Origin: Deltaproteobacteria bacterium
Lineage (GTDB): Bacteria > Desulfobacterota > Binatia > UBA9968
Length of the DNA: 54,773 nucleotides
NCBI GenBank assembly: GCA_016874755.1
Contig: VGTH01000038.1
Span: 1 to 54,773, forward strand
Reading direction: 5' to 3'
The translations under genes were made by a program, and so were the position numbers. Below, in pieces: positions 10,264-20,787 of the stretch; position 1 is the stretch's first letter; each line of letters starts with the position of its first letter. The notes under the pieces are model-generated. The model saw nothing but the letters and a program-made list of their open reading frames with translations. It did no database searches and had not been told where the DNA came from.

Positions 10264-11010
10264 ATGTCAGGTCACTCTAAGTGGAGTACGATCAAGCACA
10301 AGAAGGCCGCCAAGGATGCCAAGCGCGGTAAGATTTTCACCAAGCTGATCAAGGAAATTACCGTCGCGGCGCGCATGGGCGGCGGCGATATCAACGCCAA
10401 CCCGCGCCTGCGCACGGCGGTGACTACCGCGCGCGCGGCCAGCATGCCGAGCGATAACATCGAGCGGGCGATCAAGAAGGGCACGGGCGAGCTTGAGGGT
10501 GTGAGCTACGAAGAGATTCAGTATGAAGGCTACGGCCCGGGCGGCACCGCGATCATCGCCCAGGTGTTGACCGACAATAAGAATCGCACGGTGTCGGAGA
10601 TCCGCCGGTTGTTTTCCAAACATGGCGGCAACATGGGGGAGACCGGCTCGGTTTCTTGGATGTTCGACAAAAAAGGTTTGATCACAGTCGAGAAATCGCA
10701 AATCGATGAAGACCGGTTAATGACCATTGTGCTCGACGCCGGCGCCGAAGACGTCCGCGATGAAGAAGATGTGTTTGAAGTGATCACGCTGCCGGAGGAC
10801 TTCAACACCGTCAAAGAGAAACTCGATCAAGAAAAAATCGCCGTCGCCAGCGCCCAGGTAACCTTAGTCCCCAAAAATACCGTCGACGTGGATGCAAAAA
10901 ACGTCGAGCAGATTTTGAAGCTGACAGAGGAGCTGGAGGATCACGACGACGTGCAGAACGTCTCCTCCAACTTCAACATTCCTACCGAGTTATTAGAAAA
11001 AGCGAGCTGA
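10264..11010 (+). CDS. yebC: YebC/PmpR family DNA-binding / translation-associated regulator
   Basis: The 248-residue protein starts with the hallmark [22 protein letters not shown] and continues with [32 protein letters not shown] and the acidic C-terminal half ([14 protein letters not shown]). Full-length family members bind DNA, and some relieve ribosome stalling at prolines. It sits immediately before ruvC with a 5-nt gap, the classic yebC-ruvCAB linkage. The AAGCGGGGAG ribosome site is clear. It begins the long transcription unit running to about 19.2 kb. Confidence 0.95.
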
Positions 11011-11015
11011 AACAC

Positions 11016-11600
11016 TTGCCGGCGAAACGACTCGCAGCAAATACTCCGAGCGAGCGCATCCTGGGCATCGATCCGGGGTCGCTCACCACTGGCTGGGGTG
11101 TGGTCGACGTGAGCGGCAACCAGTTGAGCCATGTCGCCCATGGCACGATTGCGACCGCGGCGGTGCAGAATCAAGCCCAGCGGTTGGGGCGAATCTTCCA
11201 TGGCATTCAAGACGTCATGCGGCGCTACTCGCCGAACGTGATGAGTCTGGAAAAAGTTTTCTTTGCGCGCAACGCGCAAAGCGCACTCAAGCTTGGCCAG
11301 GCGCGCGGCGTCGCGCTACTAGCGGCGGCCGAAAGAGCGATCGCGGTCAGCGAGTATTCGGCCAACGAAATCAAAATCGCCGTGGTCGGCTACGGCCATG
11401 CGACCAAACCGCAGATGCAGAAGATGGTGACGGCGCTCTTGTGCTTGAATGGCGAGCTGCGCGCCGACGCCGCCGATGCCGTCGCCGCGGCGATCTGCCA
11501 CGCGCACCGGCAGGCTTTCCAATCGCGCTTGGCGCAAGCCGCCGGCGGTCGAGTGAAAGTGGTCCGTTGGCGCGACTATCGGCCGGCGGCGCAAAAATAG
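11016..11600 (+). CDS. ruvC: crossover junction endodeoxyribonuclease RuvC
   Basis: The 194-residue Holliday junction resolvase begins with TTG 5 nt after the yebC stop. The catalytic acidic residues are visible: Asp in GIDPGSLTTGWG, Glu in SLEKVFFARN and the Asp pair in DAADAVAAAICHAHRQ. RuvC cuts four-way junctions processed by RuvAB. The product is slightly long at the N-terminus (about 14 residues before RILGIDPG), so an inner start is possible. A palindromic repeat, not a gene, separates it from ruvA. Confidence 0.93.
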   Translation: MPAKRLAANTPSERILGIDPGSLTTGWGVVDVSGNQLSHVAHGTIATAAVQNQAQRLGRIFHGIQDVMRRYSPNVMSLEKVFFARNAQSALKLGQARGVALLAAAERAIAVSEYSANEIKIAVVGYGHATKPQMQKMVTALLCLNGELRADAADAVAAAICHAHRQAFQSRLAQAAGGRVKVVRWRDYRPAAQK

Positions 11601-11622
11601 CGATGTCGCGTTATCCCGTCAG

Positions 11623-11699
11623 AGTCCTTCGACAGGCTCAGGCCGAACGGAAGTTGGACTCGTTTCTCGAATCCGTTCATGCTGCGCTTGTCGAAGCAT
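11623..11699. repeat. dispersed palindromic repeat, copy 2 (inside the ruv cluster)
   Basis: The left arm (TCCTTCGACAGGCTCAGG then CCGAACGG) and right arm (CCGTTCATG then CTTGTCGAAGCA) form a long imperfect hairpin of about 77 bp. It is the same family as the copy at 5249-5320. It sits in the 145-bp gap between ruvC and ruvA, so it would be transcribed and could process or attenuate the operon message. Confidence 0.75.
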
Positions 11700-11745
11700 T
11701 CTTGAATTTCGGCACTAACGAGACTCCTCAGTAGGTCGCTATCCT

Positions 11746-12339
11746 GTGATCGCCCAAATACGCGGCACCCTAGCAGCCAAGATGCCCGGCGAGGTCGTCA
11801 TCGACGTTGCCGGCGTTGGCTATCAAGTCTTCATCCCGCTCAACGTCTTCTACCGTTTGCCGGAGGTCGGCTCGTCGCTGTATTTGCAGATTCACACGCA
11901 TGTGCGCGAAGATGCCATTCAACTATTCGGCTTTCACGACTGGCAAGAAAAGCAAGTGTTTCTCTTGCTCAACGGCGTCGGCGGCATCGGGCCCAAGCTC
12001 GCGCTGAATATTCTCTCGGGCATTCCGGCGCAAGATCTGGCGCGGGCACTGCGCGATGGCGATCAGCTGCGGCTGGTTGCGATTCCAGGCGTCGGCAAGA
12101 AACTTGCCGAGCGGATGATCGTCGAGCTGAAAGACAAGTTCGTGAACTTTTTGGCACAGGCCTCGGCGACCCACACGGACGATGCCGGTTCGGAGCTGTT
12201 TATTGACGCGGTTTCGGCGCTGGTCAATTTGGGCTATCGTAAGGTCGACGCAGAAAAGAACGTTCGTGAGGTGTTAAAGAACGGTTCTGCTGCGTTGGCA
12301 GACGTGCTCAAAGAATCGTTGCGCAACATGAGTCTGTAA
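11746..12339 (+). CDS. ruvA: Holliday junction branch migration protein RuvA
   Basis: The 197-residue protein starts with GTG ([12 protein letters not shown]) and shows the N-terminal OB fold and the tandem helix-hairpin-helix motifs ([16 protein letters not shown] and [19 protein letters not shown]). The C-terminal domain III ([16 protein letters not shown]) binds RuvB. RuvA tetramers hold the junction while RuvB pumps DNA. It ends 7 nt before the ruvB start, so the two are co-translated. Confidence 0.95.
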
Positions 12340-12346
12340 ACCGGCC

Positions 12347-13387
12347 ATGACAACAACACGCAACACGATGGTCGACGGTAGCCGGAGCGACGAAGAGTTC
12401 AGCTTCGATGTCAGCCTGCGGCCGCGCGGTTTCGACGAGTACATCGGCCAGGACAGCGTCAAGGAAAATCTCAAGGTCGCCATCGCCGCGGCGCGGGCGC
12501 GCAGCGATGTCTTGGACCATGTGCTGTTTCACGGCCCGCCCGGTTTGGGCAAGACCTCGCTGGCTTACATCATCGCGCGCGAGATGGGCGTCAATATCAA
12601 AGCGACCTCGGGGCCGGTGGTCGAGCGGCCGGGCGATTTGGCGGCGCTGCTGACCAACCTCGACGATGGCGACATTCTTTTCATTGATGAAATTCATCGC
12701 ATGAATCCGGTCATCGAAGAGGTGCTTTATCCGGCGATGGAAGATTGCCAGATCGACATCATGATCGGCCAGGGGCCGGCGGCGCGCTCGATTAAGCTGG
12801 AGCTGAAACGCTTTACGTTGGTCGGCGCGACCACGCGCTCGGGCTTGCTGACCTCGCCGCTGCGCGATCGCTTTGGCCATATTTTTCGTTTGGACTTCTA
12901 TGACGAAGCGGCGCTGTCGCGGATTCTCAAACGCTCGGCGTCGATCCTCGGCGTCAAAGGCGACGATGATGGCATCCGCGAAATCGCGCTGCGCTCGCGC
13001 GGCACGCCGCGCATCGCCAATCGGCTGTTGCGCCGGGTGCGCGACTACGTCCAAGTCAAAGGCGACGGCGCGATTACGAAAAGCTTGACCGAAGCGGCGC
13101 TAAAAATGCTCGAAGTGGATCGCCTCGGCCTGGACAAGATGGATACGCTACTGCTACTCACCGTCATCGACAAGTTTGCCGGCGGCCCAGTGGGCGTCGA
13201 TACGTTGGCGGCTGCCATCGGCGAGGAGAAGGACACCATCGAAGATGTCTATGAACCGTTCTTGATCCAAGCCGGCTTTTTGCAGCGCACGCCGCGCGGG
13301 CGTGTGGCGACGGCGCTCGCCTTCGATCACTTCGGCCGCAAGCAGGCTGTGGCCGCGCCGAAAAACAATCAAGGAAGCCTGTTCTAG
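12347..13387 (+). CDS. ruvB: Holliday junction DNA helicase RuvB
   Basis: The 346-residue AAA+ motor carries the presensor region [11 protein letters not shown], Walker [11 protein letters not shown], Walker [11 protein letters not shown], sensor 1 (VGATTRSG), the arginine finger region LRDRFG and the C-terminal winged-helix domain ending [12 protein letters not shown]. It drives branch migration on RuvA-bound junctions. Length and motifs are normal. It ends 10 nt before the DUF2905 gene. Confidence 0.97.
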
Positions 13388-13397
13388 CGAGATACCT

Positions 13398-13610
13398 ATG
13401 GGCGGTATCGGTCGCACTCTGATCGTTGTGGGTCTGGCTCTGGTGGCTGTCGGCGTGTTGGTTTCTTTGGCGGGCAAGTTCCCCTGGCTCGGCAATCTCC
13501 CGGGCGATATCAAGATCGAGCGCGACGGCTTTAATTTCTATTTCCCGTTGACCACTTGCATTGTCATCAGCGTCCTAGTTTCGCTTGTCCTTTATTTCCT
13601 GCGACGATAG
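13398..13610 (+). CDS. DUF2905 family small membrane protein
   Basis: The 70-residue protein has two membrane helices (TLIVVGLALVAVGVLVSLAG and CIVISVLVSLVLYFLRR) around the family signature FPWLGNLPGDIKIERDGFNFYFPL. DUF2905 genes are common next to ruvB or queA in many bacteria, but their role is not established. It is sandwiched between ruvB and the kinase gene with short gaps, so it is co-transcribed. Confidence 0.85.
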   Translation: MGGIGRTLIVVGLALVAVGVLVSLAGKFPWLGNLPGDIKIERDGFNFYFPLTTCIVISVLVSLVLYFLRR

Positions 13611-13624
13611 AGTTTTTTTGACCC

Positions 13625-15865
13625 ATGAACGCCCCTGCGACCAGCCTGCCGATTGAAGAGACTCTGCGGCTCGAAGACCTCAAGCGCCGCCGGCGCGAGG
13701 GCATTGTCATCGCCGTGACCGTGGTGATGATTCTGGTGTTTGCTTTCATCGAAGTGCAGCCTCCGGATGCGGCCACAGAGAGCTCGCTGCTCAGCAACAT
13801 CAGCTTTTTTCTCTTGATCAATCTCAATATCATCCTGTTCGGCTTGCTGGCCTTTCTGGTGGTGCGCAATTTGGTCAAAGTATTTTGGGAAAGCAAGCGT
13901 GGTGCGCGCCGGTCCCGGCTGCAGTGGCAATTGGTCCTGGCGATGGTGGGCTTGTCCTTGGGTTCCAACCTGCTTTTGTTTTTCGTTGCCGGAGGATTTG
14001 TCACGCGCGCCTTCGATCGGTGGTTCGATCCGCAGATCGGCGCCGCGGTTAAAGGCGCGGCGGGAATTCAAGAAACCTACTACCAAAGCGCGGCGGACAA
14101 CGCCATCGGTTTCGCCAAGCAGCTGGGCCAGCAGATTTCACAACAACGCTTGGTGGATGCGGGGCGGAGCGATGGCTTGAGAAGCTACGTGCAGGCCAAG
14201 CAGCGCGAATACCGTTTGGGGGCGCTCCAGGTGATTTCCCCTGAAAGGCAAATCCTCGCCGTATCGGTCGACCCGGAAGCCTACAAGGTGGCGCCCATCG
14301 AAGCCAACGGTGAGTTTCTCAAGCAAGCGCTGCGCGGCCAGGAGTCGGTGACGACCCAAGAATTCGGTGAAGGCGAAGTGATTCGCGCGGCCGCGCCGCT
14401 GCGCAATTCCCAAGAGCAAATCGCCGGCGCGCTGGTGGTCGACTACTACGTCGACAAGAGTCTAAGGAAGCAATCCAAGCTGATCTCGGAATCCTACGGA
14501 CAATTCAAACGGCAGGAGGTGATGGAGGGGCCCCTCAAGTACACCTACGTTGGCACACTCTTGCTGGTGACGCTGGTGGTGATTTTGGTGGCGCTCTGGT
14601 TTGGGCTCTACTTGGCGCGCGGCATTACCGTGCCGATACAGAAACTTGCCGATGGCACGCATCAAGTGGCCCAGGGCAACTTAGATTATAAGATCGAAGC
14701 CGCCGGCGATGACGAAGTCGGCGTGTTGGTCAATTCGTTTAACTCGATGACCGCCGATTTGAAGCGCAGTAGGATTGAAATTGAGCGCCATGGCAAACTG
14801 GTCGAGATGCTGCTTGCCAATATTGCCGCGGGGGTTGTCTCGATCGATCCTTCGGGGACGATCACGACGTGGAACAAAGCCGCGGCGAAAATGCTGAATA
14901 TAAGCGCCGCCGGCGCGCTCGGGAAAAAATATCAAGAAGTGTTTCAAGCGGAATTTCTCGCGGCCATGCGTGAGCTGGTCGACAACGCCCAAGGGCAGGA
15001 GACGCTGGACCGGCAGATCCAGCTGCCGCAGGCGGACCCGCCGGTGACTTTGGTCGTTATCGCAGCGGCGCTGTGCGATGAGGATGGCAAGCCTCTCGGT
15101 GTGCTGCTGTTTCTCGAGGACATCACCCAGATTCAGAAAGTGCAGCGCATGGAAGCCTGGCGCGAGGTTGCGCAGCGTTTGGCCCATGAAATCAAGAATC
15201 CGCTGACCCCGATTCAATTATCGGCGGAGCGCCTGCGCAAACGCTACGCGCCGTTGTTGCAGGGCGATGGCGCGATCCTTGACAAGTGCACGTCGACCAT
15301 CATCGCCCAGGTAGAAGAACTGAAAAACCTGGTCAATTCCTTCTCGCAGTTCAACCGTCTGCCGACGGCGCAAATTAGCGCCAACGACTTGAACGAAATC
15401 GTCCGCGATGCGCTCTTCTTGTATCAGGAGGGGCATGATGAGATCGATTTTCAGTTCAACTCAGGGACGCTGCCGGATGTCAATCTCGATCGCGTGCAAA
15501 TGAAACGGGCCTTGGTCAATCTCTTGGATAATGCGGTGGCTGCCGTGCAATCCGAGAACCACAGTGACGGGCAGATTATTTTGACCTCGCAGCACGACGC
15601 TGCCCAAGGCTGTGTGCGCCTCACCATTGCTGATAACGGCGCGGGGTTGCCCGCCCATGTCCGGGCGCAGATGTTCGAGCCCTACTTTTCGACCAAGAAG
15701 AACGGTACTGGTCTGGGTTTGTCGATCGTAAATGCTATAGTGGACGATCATCATGGACGCATTCGCGTTGTGGCCAATGAGCCCAGAGGGACCAAGTTCG
15801 TGATCGAGCTGCCGGCTGCGCAAGTGCAAGAAGCGCAGCGAGCGCGGACAGTTCTTAACAGTTGA
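13625..15865 (+). CDS. NtrY-like membrane sensor histidine kinase
   Basis: The 746-residue kinase has three N-terminal membrane helices (about 27-45, 58-80, 97-120), an extracytoplasmic sensing segment, a fourth helix near 305-328 and HAMP (about 330-382). A PAS domain (about 395-500) and HisKA with His521 in RLAHEIKNPLTPIQLSAERL follow. The ATPase domain has LVNLLDNAV, DNGAGLP and STKKNGTGLGLSIV. This is the NtrY architecture. Its usual partner NtrX is absent; instead the next gene, 11 nt on, is a receiver-LpxC fusion. That protein is the likely phosphoacceptor. Confidence 0.88.
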   Translation: MNAPATSLPIEETLRLEDLKRRRREGIVIAVTVVMILVFAFIEVQPPDAATESSLLSNISFFLLINLNIILFGLLAFLVVRNLVKVFWESKRGARRSRLQWQLVLAMVGLSLGSNLLLFFVAGGFVTRAFDRWFDPQIGAAVKGAAGIQETYYQSAADNAIGFAKQLGQQISQQRLVDAGRSDGLRSYVQAKQREYRLGALQVISPERQILAVSVDPEAYKVAPIEANGEFLKQALRGQESVTTQEFGEGEVIRAAAPLRNSQEQIAGALVVDYYVDKSLRKQSKLISESYGQFKRQEVMEGPLKYTYVGTLLLVTLVVILVALWFGLYLARGITVPIQKLADGTHQVAQGNLDYKIEAAGDDEVGVLVNSFNSMTADLKRSRIEIERHGKLVEMLLANIAAGVVSIDPSGTITTWNKAAAKMLNISAAGALGKKYQEVFQAEFLAAMRELVDNAQGQETLDRQIQLPQADPPVTLVVIAAALCDEDGKPLGVLLFLEDITQIQKVQRMEAWREVAQRLAHEIKNPLTPIQLSAERLRKRYAPLLQGDGAILDKCTSTIIAQVEELKNLVNSFSQFNRLPTAQISANDLNEIVRDALFLYQEGHDEIDFQFNSGTLPDVNLDRVQMKRALVNLLDNAVAAVQSENHSDGQIILTSQHDAAQGCVRLTIADNGAGLPAHVRAQMFEPYFSTKKNGTGLGLSIVNAIVDDHHGRIRVVANEPRGTKFVIELPAAQVQEAQRARTVLNS

Positions 15866-15876
15866 GGGAGGCGCGG

Positions 15877-17166
15877 GTGAGCGTAGCGGTTGCCGAAAAG
15901 ACTATACTTGTCGTCGACGACGAACCGGCGGTCCGGGAGTCGGTGCGCGAAGTCTTAAGTGATGAAGGCTATCGCGTCTTGGACACTGGCGATTGCGGCG
16001 CGGTTTTGCAGATGATCGACCGCGACAAGCCAGGGCTGGTCTTGCTCGATATCTGGATGGCGCAGACCGACGGCATCGAGTTGCTGAAAGAGATCAAACA
16101 CAAGAAACCGCAGCTCAACGTGGTTATGATCTCCGGCCACGGTAATATTCATACGGCGGTGACGGCGACCAAGCACGGCGCGTTTGATTTTATCGAGAAG
16201 CCGCTGTCCATCGATGGGCTACTGTTAACCGTGCGGCGCGCGCTGGGTGAGCTCCCCAGCGATGACGTAGGCGAGCTCGCGCAAAGCCAGACCAAAACCA
16301 AAAAACGCAGCAAAGCGAGCGAAGCGCGCGCCACCGCCGTGCTCAAGCAGAAGACGCTCAGGAAGAGCGTGGTGACTTCCGGACAGGGGCTCCACTCGGG
16401 AGTAAAAACCGGCCTTGTGCTGCATCCGCTGCCGGCCAACAGCGGGATTGTTTTTACCGGCTTGTCGGCGGATGAAACCGTGCGCGCGCACCTGGATAAC
16501 GTCGTCTCCACCGGTTTTGCCACCTCGCTGCGCAACGGCGGTTTTTCGGTGGCGACGGTGGAGCATTTTCTCGCCGCGCTGCACGGCCATGGCATTACGA
16601 ATCTGCTGGTGAAAGTACAAAGTGAGGTGCCGATCTTGGACGGCTCCGCCATCGAGTTTTGCCGCCTGATCGAAGAGGCCGGTGTCGAAGAACAAGACGA
16701 AGAGTGCGGCGAAATCAAAATCGACCGGCGCTATGCTGTCGAGACCCAGGGCGGCGAAGCGATCGCCATCGAACCGGCGGAAGATTTTTCAGTGCGCTAC
16801 GTCTTGAAGTATCCGAAACCGGTGGGGCAGCAAGAGTATCTCTACCGGCACCGCGGCGCGGCCTCATTCAAAAAAGAGATCGCTCCGGCGCGCACCTTTG
16901 GCTTTCTTAAGGACATCGCCATGCTGCAGACCATGGGGCTCGCCAACGGCGGACGCTTGAGCAATTTTATTTTGATCGACGACGAAAAGATCGTCAACAC
17001 GCAGTTGCGTTTCCCCGATGAGCTGGCGCGCCACAAGATTCTCGATATCCTCGGAGATTTCTTTCTACTTGGCAGACCCATTCGCGGCGCGATCACGGCG
17101 CGCATGACGGGCCACTCGGACAACATCGCGCTCCTGCGCGAAATCAGAAAAACCTTAGCTTCTTAG
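15877..17166 (+). CDS. lpxC: response-regulator receiver fused to UDP-3-O-acyl-N-acetylglucosamine deacetylase (LpxC)
   Basis: The 429-residue product has an N-terminal NtrX-like receiver (residues 7-125) with acidic DDE, phosphoacceptor Asp58 (LVLLDIWM), Ser/Thr switch region MISGHG and Lys in FIEKPLS. A basic linker (about 126-157) leads to a full LpxC domain (158-429). LpxC zinc and catalytic residues are all present: Glu229-His230 (VEHFLAAL), His386 and Asp390 (HKILD), and His413 (GHSDN). Spacing between them is close to E. coli H79/H238/D242/H265. LpxC makes the committed step of lipid A synthesis. GTG 15877 with GAGGGAGG upstream is preferred over TTG 15862. The AAA+ and Fis domains of NtrX are absent. 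Confidence 0.93.
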   Translation: MSVAVAEKTILVVDDEPAVRESVREVLSDEGYRVLDTGDCGAVLQMIDRDKPGLVLLDIWMAQTDGIELLKEIKHKKPQLNVVMISGHGNIHTAVTATKHGAFDFIEKPLSIDGLLLTVRRALGELPSDDVGELAQSQTKTKKRSKASEARATAVLKQKTLRKSVVTSGQGLHSGVKTGLVLHPLPANSGIVFTGLSADETVRAHLDNVVSTGFATSLRNGGFSVATVEHFLAALHGHGITNLLVKVQSEVPILDGSAIEFCRLIEEAGVEEQDEECGEIKIDRRYAVETQGGEAIAIEPAEDFSVRYVLKYPKPVGQQEYLYRHRGAASFKKEIAPARTFGFLKDIAMLQTMGLANGGRLSNFILIDDEKIVNTQLRFPDELARHKILDILGDFFLLGRPIRGAITARMTGHSDNIALLREIRKTLAS

Positions 17167-17178
17167 TGGCACGCGGTC

Positions 17179-17628
17179 ATGGCACAGGCAGAAAACTTCA
17201 CCAAGCTTTTCACTATCAACGAAGCCAACGCTTTGCTGCCCATAGTGCGGCCGATTGTTGAAAAAATTCTGGAAAATATTCGGCGCCTGCGCAGCGCCAG
17301 TGAAACCGTCATTCGCACCGAGCGGCTTGATCCCGAAGCGCCCAATCTGCTCGATCGTTTGCAGGAAAACGGCGACATCGCGCGGCTCATCGCTCAAGTG
17401 AAAGAATGGGTCAATGAGATTCAGAGCCACGGCTGCATTTGTAAAGGCGCTGAGCAAGGTTTGATCGATTTTCCCTGCATGCTGGGTAACGAAGTGGTTT
17501 TTCTTTGCTGGCAGATCGGTGAGCCGAGCGTGAATTTCTGGCATCGTATCGAAGACGGGTTCGCCGGACGCAAGCCTTTTCTCGAGCCAGAAGAGTCAGA
17601 TCCCGACAACAAGCCTTCGTTGCATTAA
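17179..17628 (+). CDS. DUF2203 family protein
   Basis: The 149-residue protein matches DUF2203: N-terminal KLFTINEANALLPIVRPIVEKIL, a helical middle and the signature GCICKGAEQGLIDFPCMLGNEVVFLCWQIGEP with FWHRIEDGFAGRKP. The function of the family is unknown. It follows lpxC by 12 nt and precedes queG by 22 nt, so it belongs to the operon. Confidence 0.82.
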   Translation: MAQAENFTKLFTINEANALLPIVRPIVEKILENIRRLRSASETVIRTERLDPEAPNLLDRLQENGDIARLIAQVKEWVNEIQSHGCICKGAEQGLIDFPCMLGNEVVFLCWQIGEPSVNFWHRIEDGFAGRKPFLEPEESDPDNKPSLH

Positions 17629-19648: not shown

Positions 19649-20170
19649 GTGAGCGCGGAAAGCGCAGCCAAAACAATCGTCAGCGGGTTGAAAGGCGCAG
19701 GCATCAGTCTGATTGCCACGTTGCCCGATATCAATCTGTCCCAGCTGCTGCACGAAGTGGAGGAAGACCGCGACGTTATTCACGTGCCGCTGTGCCGCGA
19801 GGAAGAGGGCATTGGCATCTGCGCCGGCGCTTATCTGGTCGGTAAGAAGTGTGCGGCGATCATGCAAAACGGCGGGTTTTTCAATAGCAATAACGCGATT
19901 GTCAGTACGCTCTTGCAATATCAGATTCCGCTGTTGCTGTTGATTTACTACGCCGGCGACATCGGCGACCGCACCTTTGCCACCAGCGGCAGCATGACCG
20001 AGCCCGTGCTTCAGGCTTTGGGTATCCGCTACTACATCATGCGCGATCCGGACGACGCGCCGGAGCTGATCAAACGGGCACAGATTCTGACGGAAGACGC
20101 CAAGCGTCCGGTGGCGTTGTTGTTGACCAAGGAAGTTTTGGGGCGGCGCTCGGTTCTGAAGTCGCTATAG
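19649..20170 (+). CDS. TPP-dependent decarboxylase alpha subunit (sulfopyruvate/phosphonopyruvate decarboxylase-like, Pyr domain)
   Basis: The 173-residue protein (GTG start, AAGGAAA upstream) is the pyrimidine-binding half of a split TPP enzyme. It has TLPDINLSQLLHEVE, the catalytic Glu region VPLCREEEGIGICAGAYL, and NGGFFNSNNAI with a hydrophobic strand. It resembles ComD, the alpha subunit of sulfopyruvate decarboxylase. The matching cofactor half is the next gene, 11 nt away. Substrate could be sulfopyruvate, phosphonopyruvate or another 3-substituted pyruvate; the sequence alone does not decide. Confidence 0.8.
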   Translation: MSAESAAKTIVSGLKGAGISLIATLPDINLSQLLHEVEEDRDVIHVPLCREEEGIGICAGAYLVGKKCAAIMQNGGFFNSNNAIVSTLLQYQIPLLLLIYYAGDIGDRTFATSGSMTEPVLQALGIRYYIMRDPDDAPELIKRAQILTEDAKRPVALLLTKEVLGRRSVLKSL

Positions 20171-20181
20171 CAGGAACATTT

Positions 20182-20787
20182 GTGAAACGGTTTGATTGTC
20201 TCAAAGCAGTCGCTGCAGAGGCGCAAGACGCCTTAGTCGTTAGCTCGGCAGGCGCGATGACACTGGAGTGGAACGCGCTGCACCCCAGCGACGGCAATTT
20301 TCGCGTGCGCACCCTTGGGCTGTGTTCGTCGATTGCCCTGGGCATGGCGTTAGGGCTTCCGCATCGCAAAGTGATCGCCCTCGACGGCGACGGTTCGTTG
20401 TTGATGAATCTCTGTTCGCTGCCAACCGTCGCGCGCATGAAGCCAAAGAATCTCGTTCATATCGTCTTCGACAACGAGGTCTATGAAGCTTCAGGCAGTA
20501 AAAAGACCGCCACCGGCTGCGGCACCGACTTGGTCGGCATCGCCCGCGCCGCTGGCATTGAAAATTCTTTTTGGGCTGAATCGGTCGATTCATTCGCCAA
20601 GCTGGTTAGGGACGCGGTGGCGGGCAATGCCGGCACGTTTATCGGCGCCAAGGTGACCGCCGAAAGAGTCGATGTGGCGCCGTTTCCCCTCGACGAAGTC
20701 GAAAACAAATATCGCTTCATTCGCCACGTCGAAAAGACCGAGAATATAAAAGTCTTTTCCACCGCCTTGCCGGCGAGCTACGTCTGA
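20182..20787 (+). CDS. TPP-dependent decarboxylase beta subunit (sulfopyruvate decarboxylase-like, PP domain)
   Basis: The 201-residue protein (GTG start) has the TPP-diphosphate motif GDGSLLMNLCSLPTVARM followed by NLVHIVFDNEVYEASG, as in ComE and the C-terminal half of phosphonopyruvate decarboxylases. It pairs with the preceding alpha subunit to build the active site at the subunit interface. The C-terminal 25 residues (NKYRFIRHVEKTENIKVF) extend past the usual domain. It is followed 7 nt on by the LLM oxidoreductase gene. Confidence 0.8.
   Translation: MKRFDCLKAVAAEAQDALVVSSAGAMTLEWNALHPSDGNFRVRTLGLCSSIALGMALGLPHRKVIALDGDGSLLMNLCSLPTVARMKPKNLVHIVFDNEVYEASGSKKTATGCGTDLVGIARAAGIENSFWAESVDSFAKLVRDAVAGNAGTFIGAKVTAERVDVAPFPLDEVENKYRFIRHVEKTENIKVFSTALPASYV

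Follow-up and report, generated by a model that had tools for sequence, protein, structure and literature searches.

The window, that is, the whole stretch of 54,773 nucleotides analysed, carries on its forward strand a gene encoding a protein of 429 amino acids (positions 15877–17166, GTG start), in which a receiver domain is fused to LpxC. The receiver, of the NtrX type, occupies positions 15904–16233 (PF00072, E = 1.1e-29) and includes the codons of the phospho-acceptor Asp58 (16048–16050, counted from the GTG at 15877) and of the conserved Lys in the motif FIEKP (16198–16200). It is followed by a linker at 16234–16347, predicted to be disordered, and by a complete LpxC deacetylase domain at 16348–17145, which matched positions 1–266 of the 268 in PF03331 (E = 1.2e-83). 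No match to an AAA+ or HTH domain was obtained in the fusion by domain search. A likely ribosome-binding site, GGGAGG (15866–15871), was read just ahead of the GTG; an in-frame TTG at 15862 is a possible alternative start, but a less likely one. The intact receiver and the complete LpxC thus lie in one frame from the GTG at 15877 to position 17166, as the original prediction had stated.

The genes upstream, also on the forward strand, are a yebC-ruvC-ruvA-ruvB block (10264–13387), which also precedes lpxC in two relatives with stand-alone LpxC (L217 and L226), a frame encoding a DUF2905 protein (13302–13610), and an NtrY-like histidine kinase with HAMP, PAS, HisKA, and HATPase_c domains (13625–15865), the stop codon of which ends 11 nt before the GTG of the fusion. 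The NtrY_N domain (PF19312) was not matched in this kinase at E = 1e-3; it was found in the kinases of L044 and L045, two loci with a longer form of the fusion. A DUF2203 protein is encoded downstream on the same strand (17179–17628). Further along the window (19649–20787), two adjacent frames look by eye as though a thiamine-diphosphate enzyme had been split between them.

In the window genome (5.56 Mb, 99.55% complete, 101 contigs), a profile search with PF03331 matched only the LpxC of the fusion. The fusion scored 242.3 bits against TIGR00325, above the curated equivalog cut-off of 187.25, and 139.3 bits against the NtrX model NF051870, below its cut-off of 600. By score and residues, the protein is a predicted LpxC that would deacetylate UDP-3-O-acyl-GlcNAc, and, judged from its sequence, it is derived from NtrX but is not itself an NtrX. 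The best match to the NtrX model in this genome was an NtrC-type regulator gene with one in-frame TAG (L256, G000:C8:142205-143560). The LpxC tail after the last catalytic His had a median length of 16 residues in the fusions and was equally short in some stand-alone relatives.

An AlphaFold model of the fusion, built from 38 rows, had a mean pLDDT of 84.8 and a pTM of 0.71, with pLDDT below 50 in the linker (residues 125–146) and within LpxC (338–346 and 350–371). The best Foldseek matches were to Pseudomonas aeruginosa LpxC, and for the best 60 PDB chains among the matches listed, each best match covered only one of the two domains. Fixed packing of the receiver against LpxC was not supported, because the linker is disordered and the pTM is moderate. 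The basic linker described in the original prediction was found in the window and in several near relatives, which belong to its family; linkers elsewhere in the class are not basic, and basic character was rejected as a functional element on that ground.

Distribution of the fusion

Among 148 genomes sampled from the class, which is Candidatus Binatia going by named relatives, LpxC was found in 140, with 141 matches, of which 133 lay in frames of at least 410 amino acids. Frame length alone is no proof of a receiver, which was confirmed by search in all 40 of the class regions fetched; a receiver was also present in shorter loci with a complete frame. Of the eight shorter matches, seven were apparently cut, most of them at contig ends, and one was stand-alone. 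The latter (L002, G129:C171) is a second, ordinary LpxC from a genome of the same family that is 80% complete; it sits on a short contig and may represent contamination. No LpxC match was obtained in eight of the 148 genomes, including three that are >90% complete (G056, G058, and G102). Among the named relatives at 66–72% identity is a Candidatus Binatia record (L036), and more records of that name occur at 56–57%.

Comparison with the LpxC proteins of related genomes, which had been proposed as a check, therefore showed that the close relatives are likewise fused and do not encode the two parts separately. That an assembly or sequencing artefact joined two genes is vanishingly improbable: although the window genome is a 101-contig assembly of probable metagenomic origin, the identical architecture occurs across many genera, in genomes of one to four contigs (G006, G007, G116, and G117) among others. 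Because it recurs in so many independent assemblies, assembly error can be excluded.

Fusions were also found outside the class. In a sample of Nitrospirota, the phylum of the genome containing L071, nine of 148 genomes had a divergent frame of 444–496 amino acids, and all four frames fetched were receiver–LpxC fusions; four of the nine genomes had an ordinary LpxC as well. In the LpxC tree, these sequences fell with the other fusions on a long branch. Judged by eye, all four (L267–L270) have Ser at the equivalent of Thr191 and Leu in place of the window's His in GLHSG; these divergent proteins may have another substrate or role. Within the home phylum, fused and stand-alone genomes occur side by side in three families (f26, f43, and f64) and, by score, in a fourth (f99), which suggests gene transfer. 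In a sample of 188 genomes from the phylum of L052, whose genome is named Myxococcales, 89 had LpxC. Of the longer frames, 14 were fetched and none of these had a receiver, so that their extra length is probably due to a frame left open by chance. The translations of three long frames (L271, L272, and L276), judged by eye, resemble LpxC-FabZ.

Descent from NtrX and decay of its output domains

In the receiver tree, the fused receivers and six NtrX proteins grouped together against 26 other NtrC-type regulators (SH-aLRT 98), the six NtrX sequences being scattered within this group at low resolution. In the PDB, the receiver was matched best by 4d6x, a Fis-family regulatory protein, and 5m7n, a nitrogen assimilation regulatory protein. 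Both results bear out the NtrX-like nature originally attributed to the receiver. The fused LpxC domains fell on one side of a branch separating them from 22 stand-alone sequences (SH-aLRT 100, or 99 with the Nitrospirota forms included), after removal from the stand-alone rows of L041 and L043, two fusions truncated where their contigs end. When the receiver and LpxC alignments were joined, the fused sequences were separated from five separate pairs with an SH-aLRT of 99. Several stand-alone rows in these trees have long branches. In one tree, the stand-alone LpxC sequences nearest to the fused group were from a single family (L127 and L220, of G230 and G158), and NtrX was not found in these two genomes.

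The genes for LpxC and NtrX are often neighbours where they are separate. Of the 10 stand-alone regions fetched for the neighbourhood survey, three (L218, L222, and L226) contain lpxC, a kinase gene, and ntrX, with the kinase gene lying between the other two; a fourth (L225) contains lpxC and a kinase gene, and a fifth (L217) has only a weak partial match at the end of the region. The kinase of the window matched those of L218, L222, and L226, which lie beside a stand-alone NtrX, with 534–570 bits. On a broader scale, in 42 of 95 stand-alone genomes with both places among the matches listed, the start of NtrX is no more than 7 kb from lpxC, and in 39 of these 42 the distance is 3.3–4.6 kb, which leaves room for a kinase gene. 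For the other 53, again among the matches listed, NtrX is far away on the same contig in six and on another contig in 47.

The long forms of the fusion record the decay of the regulator. The LpxC set contains 17 long rows, with frames of 707–820 amino acids where they are not split, and 16 of them were used in the motif alignment, representing 15 distinct genomes (L044 and L215 are from one genome). The GAFTGA motif was gone in all 16, and the Walker B pair was broken in all 16, the Glu having been lost in every row and the Asp kept in seven; the Gly-Lys of Walker A was kept throughout. All three motifs were kept in the six stand-alone NtrX proteins, and Walker A and Walker B in the 24 other regulators. 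Scores against the sigma-54 domain were 239–253 bits for NtrX but 76–116 for the long fusions, and those against the receiver 106–115 and 101–109, respectively. The HTH of the long forms aligns with that of NtrX but its recognition stretch is altered, and it is unrecognisable in L209 and L213; HTH_8 was matched in three of three NtrX proteins but in none of the three long fusions tested, even at E = 1. In seven short forms belonging to a second group, the receiver is still followed by a stretch resembling NtrX. The original prediction that the AAA+ and DNA-binding parts of NtrX had been replaced thus agrees both with their absence from the fusion in the window and with their visible decay in sister lineages. 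In two loci (L046 and L143), the receiver and the rest of a long NtrX–LpxC are in different frames, reflecting either a frameshift or a sequence error.

These observations bear on the idea that the fusion still acts as a transcription regulator that merely happens to carry LpxC. Most long forms do retain an HTH-like stretch before LpxC, as this idea would expect, but the form in the window has no match to a DNA-binding domain, neither the sigma-54 loop nor the Glu of Walker B survives in the long forms, and HTH_8 went undetected in all three tested; we regard it as highly improbable. The order of events within the fused group is less clear, with the long forms placed inside the short ones in the joined tree at weak deep support, and a single short-form clade not rejected (p-AU 0.105). 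The AAA+ part may have been lost once or several times; a single gain is less likely.

Genomes with the fusion have almost no separate NtrX. A canonical-type NtrX (E ≤ 1e-135) was found in 260 of 395 genomes of the phylum, none of which passed the NF051870 cut-off. When the tally was limited to genomes of known LpxC architecture, which are not independent of one another, such an NtrX was present in none of the 16 fused genomes of the class, in one of the 36 other fused genomes (G421, which has both the fusion and NtrX), and in 13 of the 16 stand-alone genomes, the exceptions being G158, G230, and G214. The receiver was seen directly in 42 of these 52 fused genomes and was inferred from frame length in 10; G193, which has both kinds of LpxC, was counted as fused, and G441 and G189 (partial) were left out. 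A separate search of 40 genomes agreed, with 487–510 bits in six stand-alone genomes, five of which came from the prior neighbourhood survey, and at most 423 bits in 34 fused genomes.

Conserved residues and the linked kinase

Conservation was assessed in 107 fused rows (91 short and 16 long), a set that includes the window twice and some near-copies and excludes the Nitrospirota forms. The acid pair and the phospho-acceptor Asp of the receiver were present in 106 rows, with a gap in the other, and the Lys was present in all 107; Ser or Thr occupied the remaining receiver position in 103 rows and Cys in four. The retention of Asp58 and the FIEKP Lys that had been pointed out in the window therefore extends across the fused rows. 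The same applies to the zinc and catalytic residues of LpxC: the equivalents of E78, H79, T191, H238, K239, D242, and H265 in Escherichia coli numbering were kept in the window and in 107 of 107 rows.

The kinase is closely linked to the fusion in the class. The genes usually run yebC-ruvC-ruvA-ruvB-kinase-fusion, some loci lacking parts of this series, and an NtrY-like kinase lay upstream of the fusion in all 40 fetched class regions, mostly with <100 nt between its stop codon and the receiver. Among the long-fusion loci with at least 2 kb of upstream sequence, the kinase was adjacent in eight of 12 and absent upstream in four, and in the second group of short fusions it was upstream in one of 20 loci and absent in 19, with neighbours that varied among the three loci examined. 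Even where it is unlinked from the fusion, the kinase persists, since 23 of the 24 genomes tested had one match at E ≤ 1e-60. Only G525, which is 75% complete, had no NtrY-like kinase at this threshold; this genome carries two different receiver–LpxC genes (L193 and L194). For six unlinked kinases, no receiver was found within the fetched flanks of ~1.4 kb. In a mirror-tree comparison of the kinase, receiver, LpxC, and RuvB across 30 loci, the correlations were 0.845–0.918, and that between the kinase and receiver was no higher than those with RuvB.

A receiver retained simply for folding or dimerisation, with no control by phosphorylation, would be compatible with the differences in the linker between lineages and with those in gene neighbourhood in the second short group. 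Such a relic would not, however, be expected to keep its Lys in every one of the 107 rows, and its acid pair and Asp in all but one (a gap), while in the long forms the AAA+ and HTH parts were decaying, nor to be accompanied by a kinase in 23 of 24 genomes, and we therefore consider this explanation unlikely.

Proposed control of LpxC and known systems

The reading that we favour as probable is that an NtrY-type kinase and an NtrX-derived regulator with LpxC as its output form a two-component system that sets lipid A flux. NtrY would phosphorylate Asp58 of the fusion, the attached LpxC would change in activity, location, or stability with the phosphorylation state, and a signal from the envelope would thereby set lipid A flux after translation. 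Phosphotransfer to Asp58 and its effect on LpxC are what we infer here, and the conserved site and the adjacent NtrY-like kinase are consistent with both. With regard to origin, an ancestral NtrX gene neighbouring lpxC may have fused to it, after which the sigma-54 AAA+ and DNA-binding parts would have decayed and then been deleted to leave the receiver–LpxC form. We lean, with somewhat less confidence, towards the view that a sigma-54-type regulator became a phosphorylation-controlled LpxC class-wide and that the gene then spread, replacing or joining ordinary LpxC.

A more tentative alternative, which we consider possible but the weaker reading, is that the receiver docks LpxC on NtrY at the inner membrane and that phosphorylation releases or recruits the enzyme with its catalysis unaltered. 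The HAMP match in the kinase of the window and the NtrY_N matches in those of the related loci L044 and L045 suggest a membrane kinase, the flexible linker would suit a tether, and, according to the available part of PMC12444477, the LpxC of Neisseria meningitidis is reportedly brought to the inner membrane by LapB/Ght. Tethering alone would not need every residue of the phosphorylation site, yet all are kept.

If the two-component reading is true, such a system acts directly on LpxC, without a route via genes or protein breakdown, and outer-membrane synthesis could, across a large group of uncultured bacteria, be under the immediate control of a sensor kinase. The steps from a transcription factor to an enzyme switch would also still be preserved in living lineages.

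The stand-alone LpxC of E. coli is regulated by proteolysis through FtsH, LapB, and YejM. LapB was rejected as a marker of such regulation, because its Zn-ribbon model PF18073 also matches Bacillus subtilis and others; the matches in frames of about 460 amino acids are presumably RadA. Stand-alone LpxC (TIGR00325) and the fusion share the same complete catalytic domain, and only the fusion has an N-terminal receiver. The closest working analogy is CheB, a response regulator with an enzyme output, with which the fusion shares the layout of receiver, linker, and enzyme, although LpxC was not found described as such an output. LpxC is also fused in LpxC-FabZ (NF009667), but its partner there is a 3-hydroxyacyl-ACP dehydratase and not a signalling domain.

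No description of a receiver–LpxC fusion was found in the literature searched, most subscription papers and InterPro-like databases lying outside the search, and the available part of PMC12444477 nowhere uses the terms fused, fusion, or response regulator. The controls of LpxC named in the same part are the binding of MurA, transcription, turnover by Lon as a possibility, and LapB/Ght. The activation of P. aeruginosa LpxC by direct binding of MurA, described there, resembles the control proposed for the fusion in acting on the protein and not on its gene or its breakdown, but MurA is a separate metabolic enzyme, whereas the fusion has a covalently attached receiver with a kinase. In Desulfovibrio vulgaris, the response regulator DVU2934 has lpxC as its single reported target according to the portion of PMC3333781 at hand; unlike the fusion, it is a transcription regulator separate from LpxC and acts on the lpxC gene.

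The NtrYX systems of Rhodobacter sphaeroides and Caulobacter crescentus likewise link an NtrY-like kinase and an NtrX receiver to lipid A commitment, and the available parts of PMC7240162 and PMC12444477 state that NtrYX affects the lpxC transcript level in alphaproteobacteria. When NtrYX was lost in R. sphaeroides, the lpxC transcript rose 8.8-fold and LPS increased about twofold, an apparently indirect effect (PMC7240162, as far as available) whose sign need not carry over to the fusion. As these sources describe it in part, NtrX is there a protein of its own that binds DNA and regulates dozens of genes, whereas in the fusion the receiver is covalently attached and the DNA-binding part is gone, so that the link between NtrYX and lipid A, so far apparently indirect, would become directly testable with two purified proteins.
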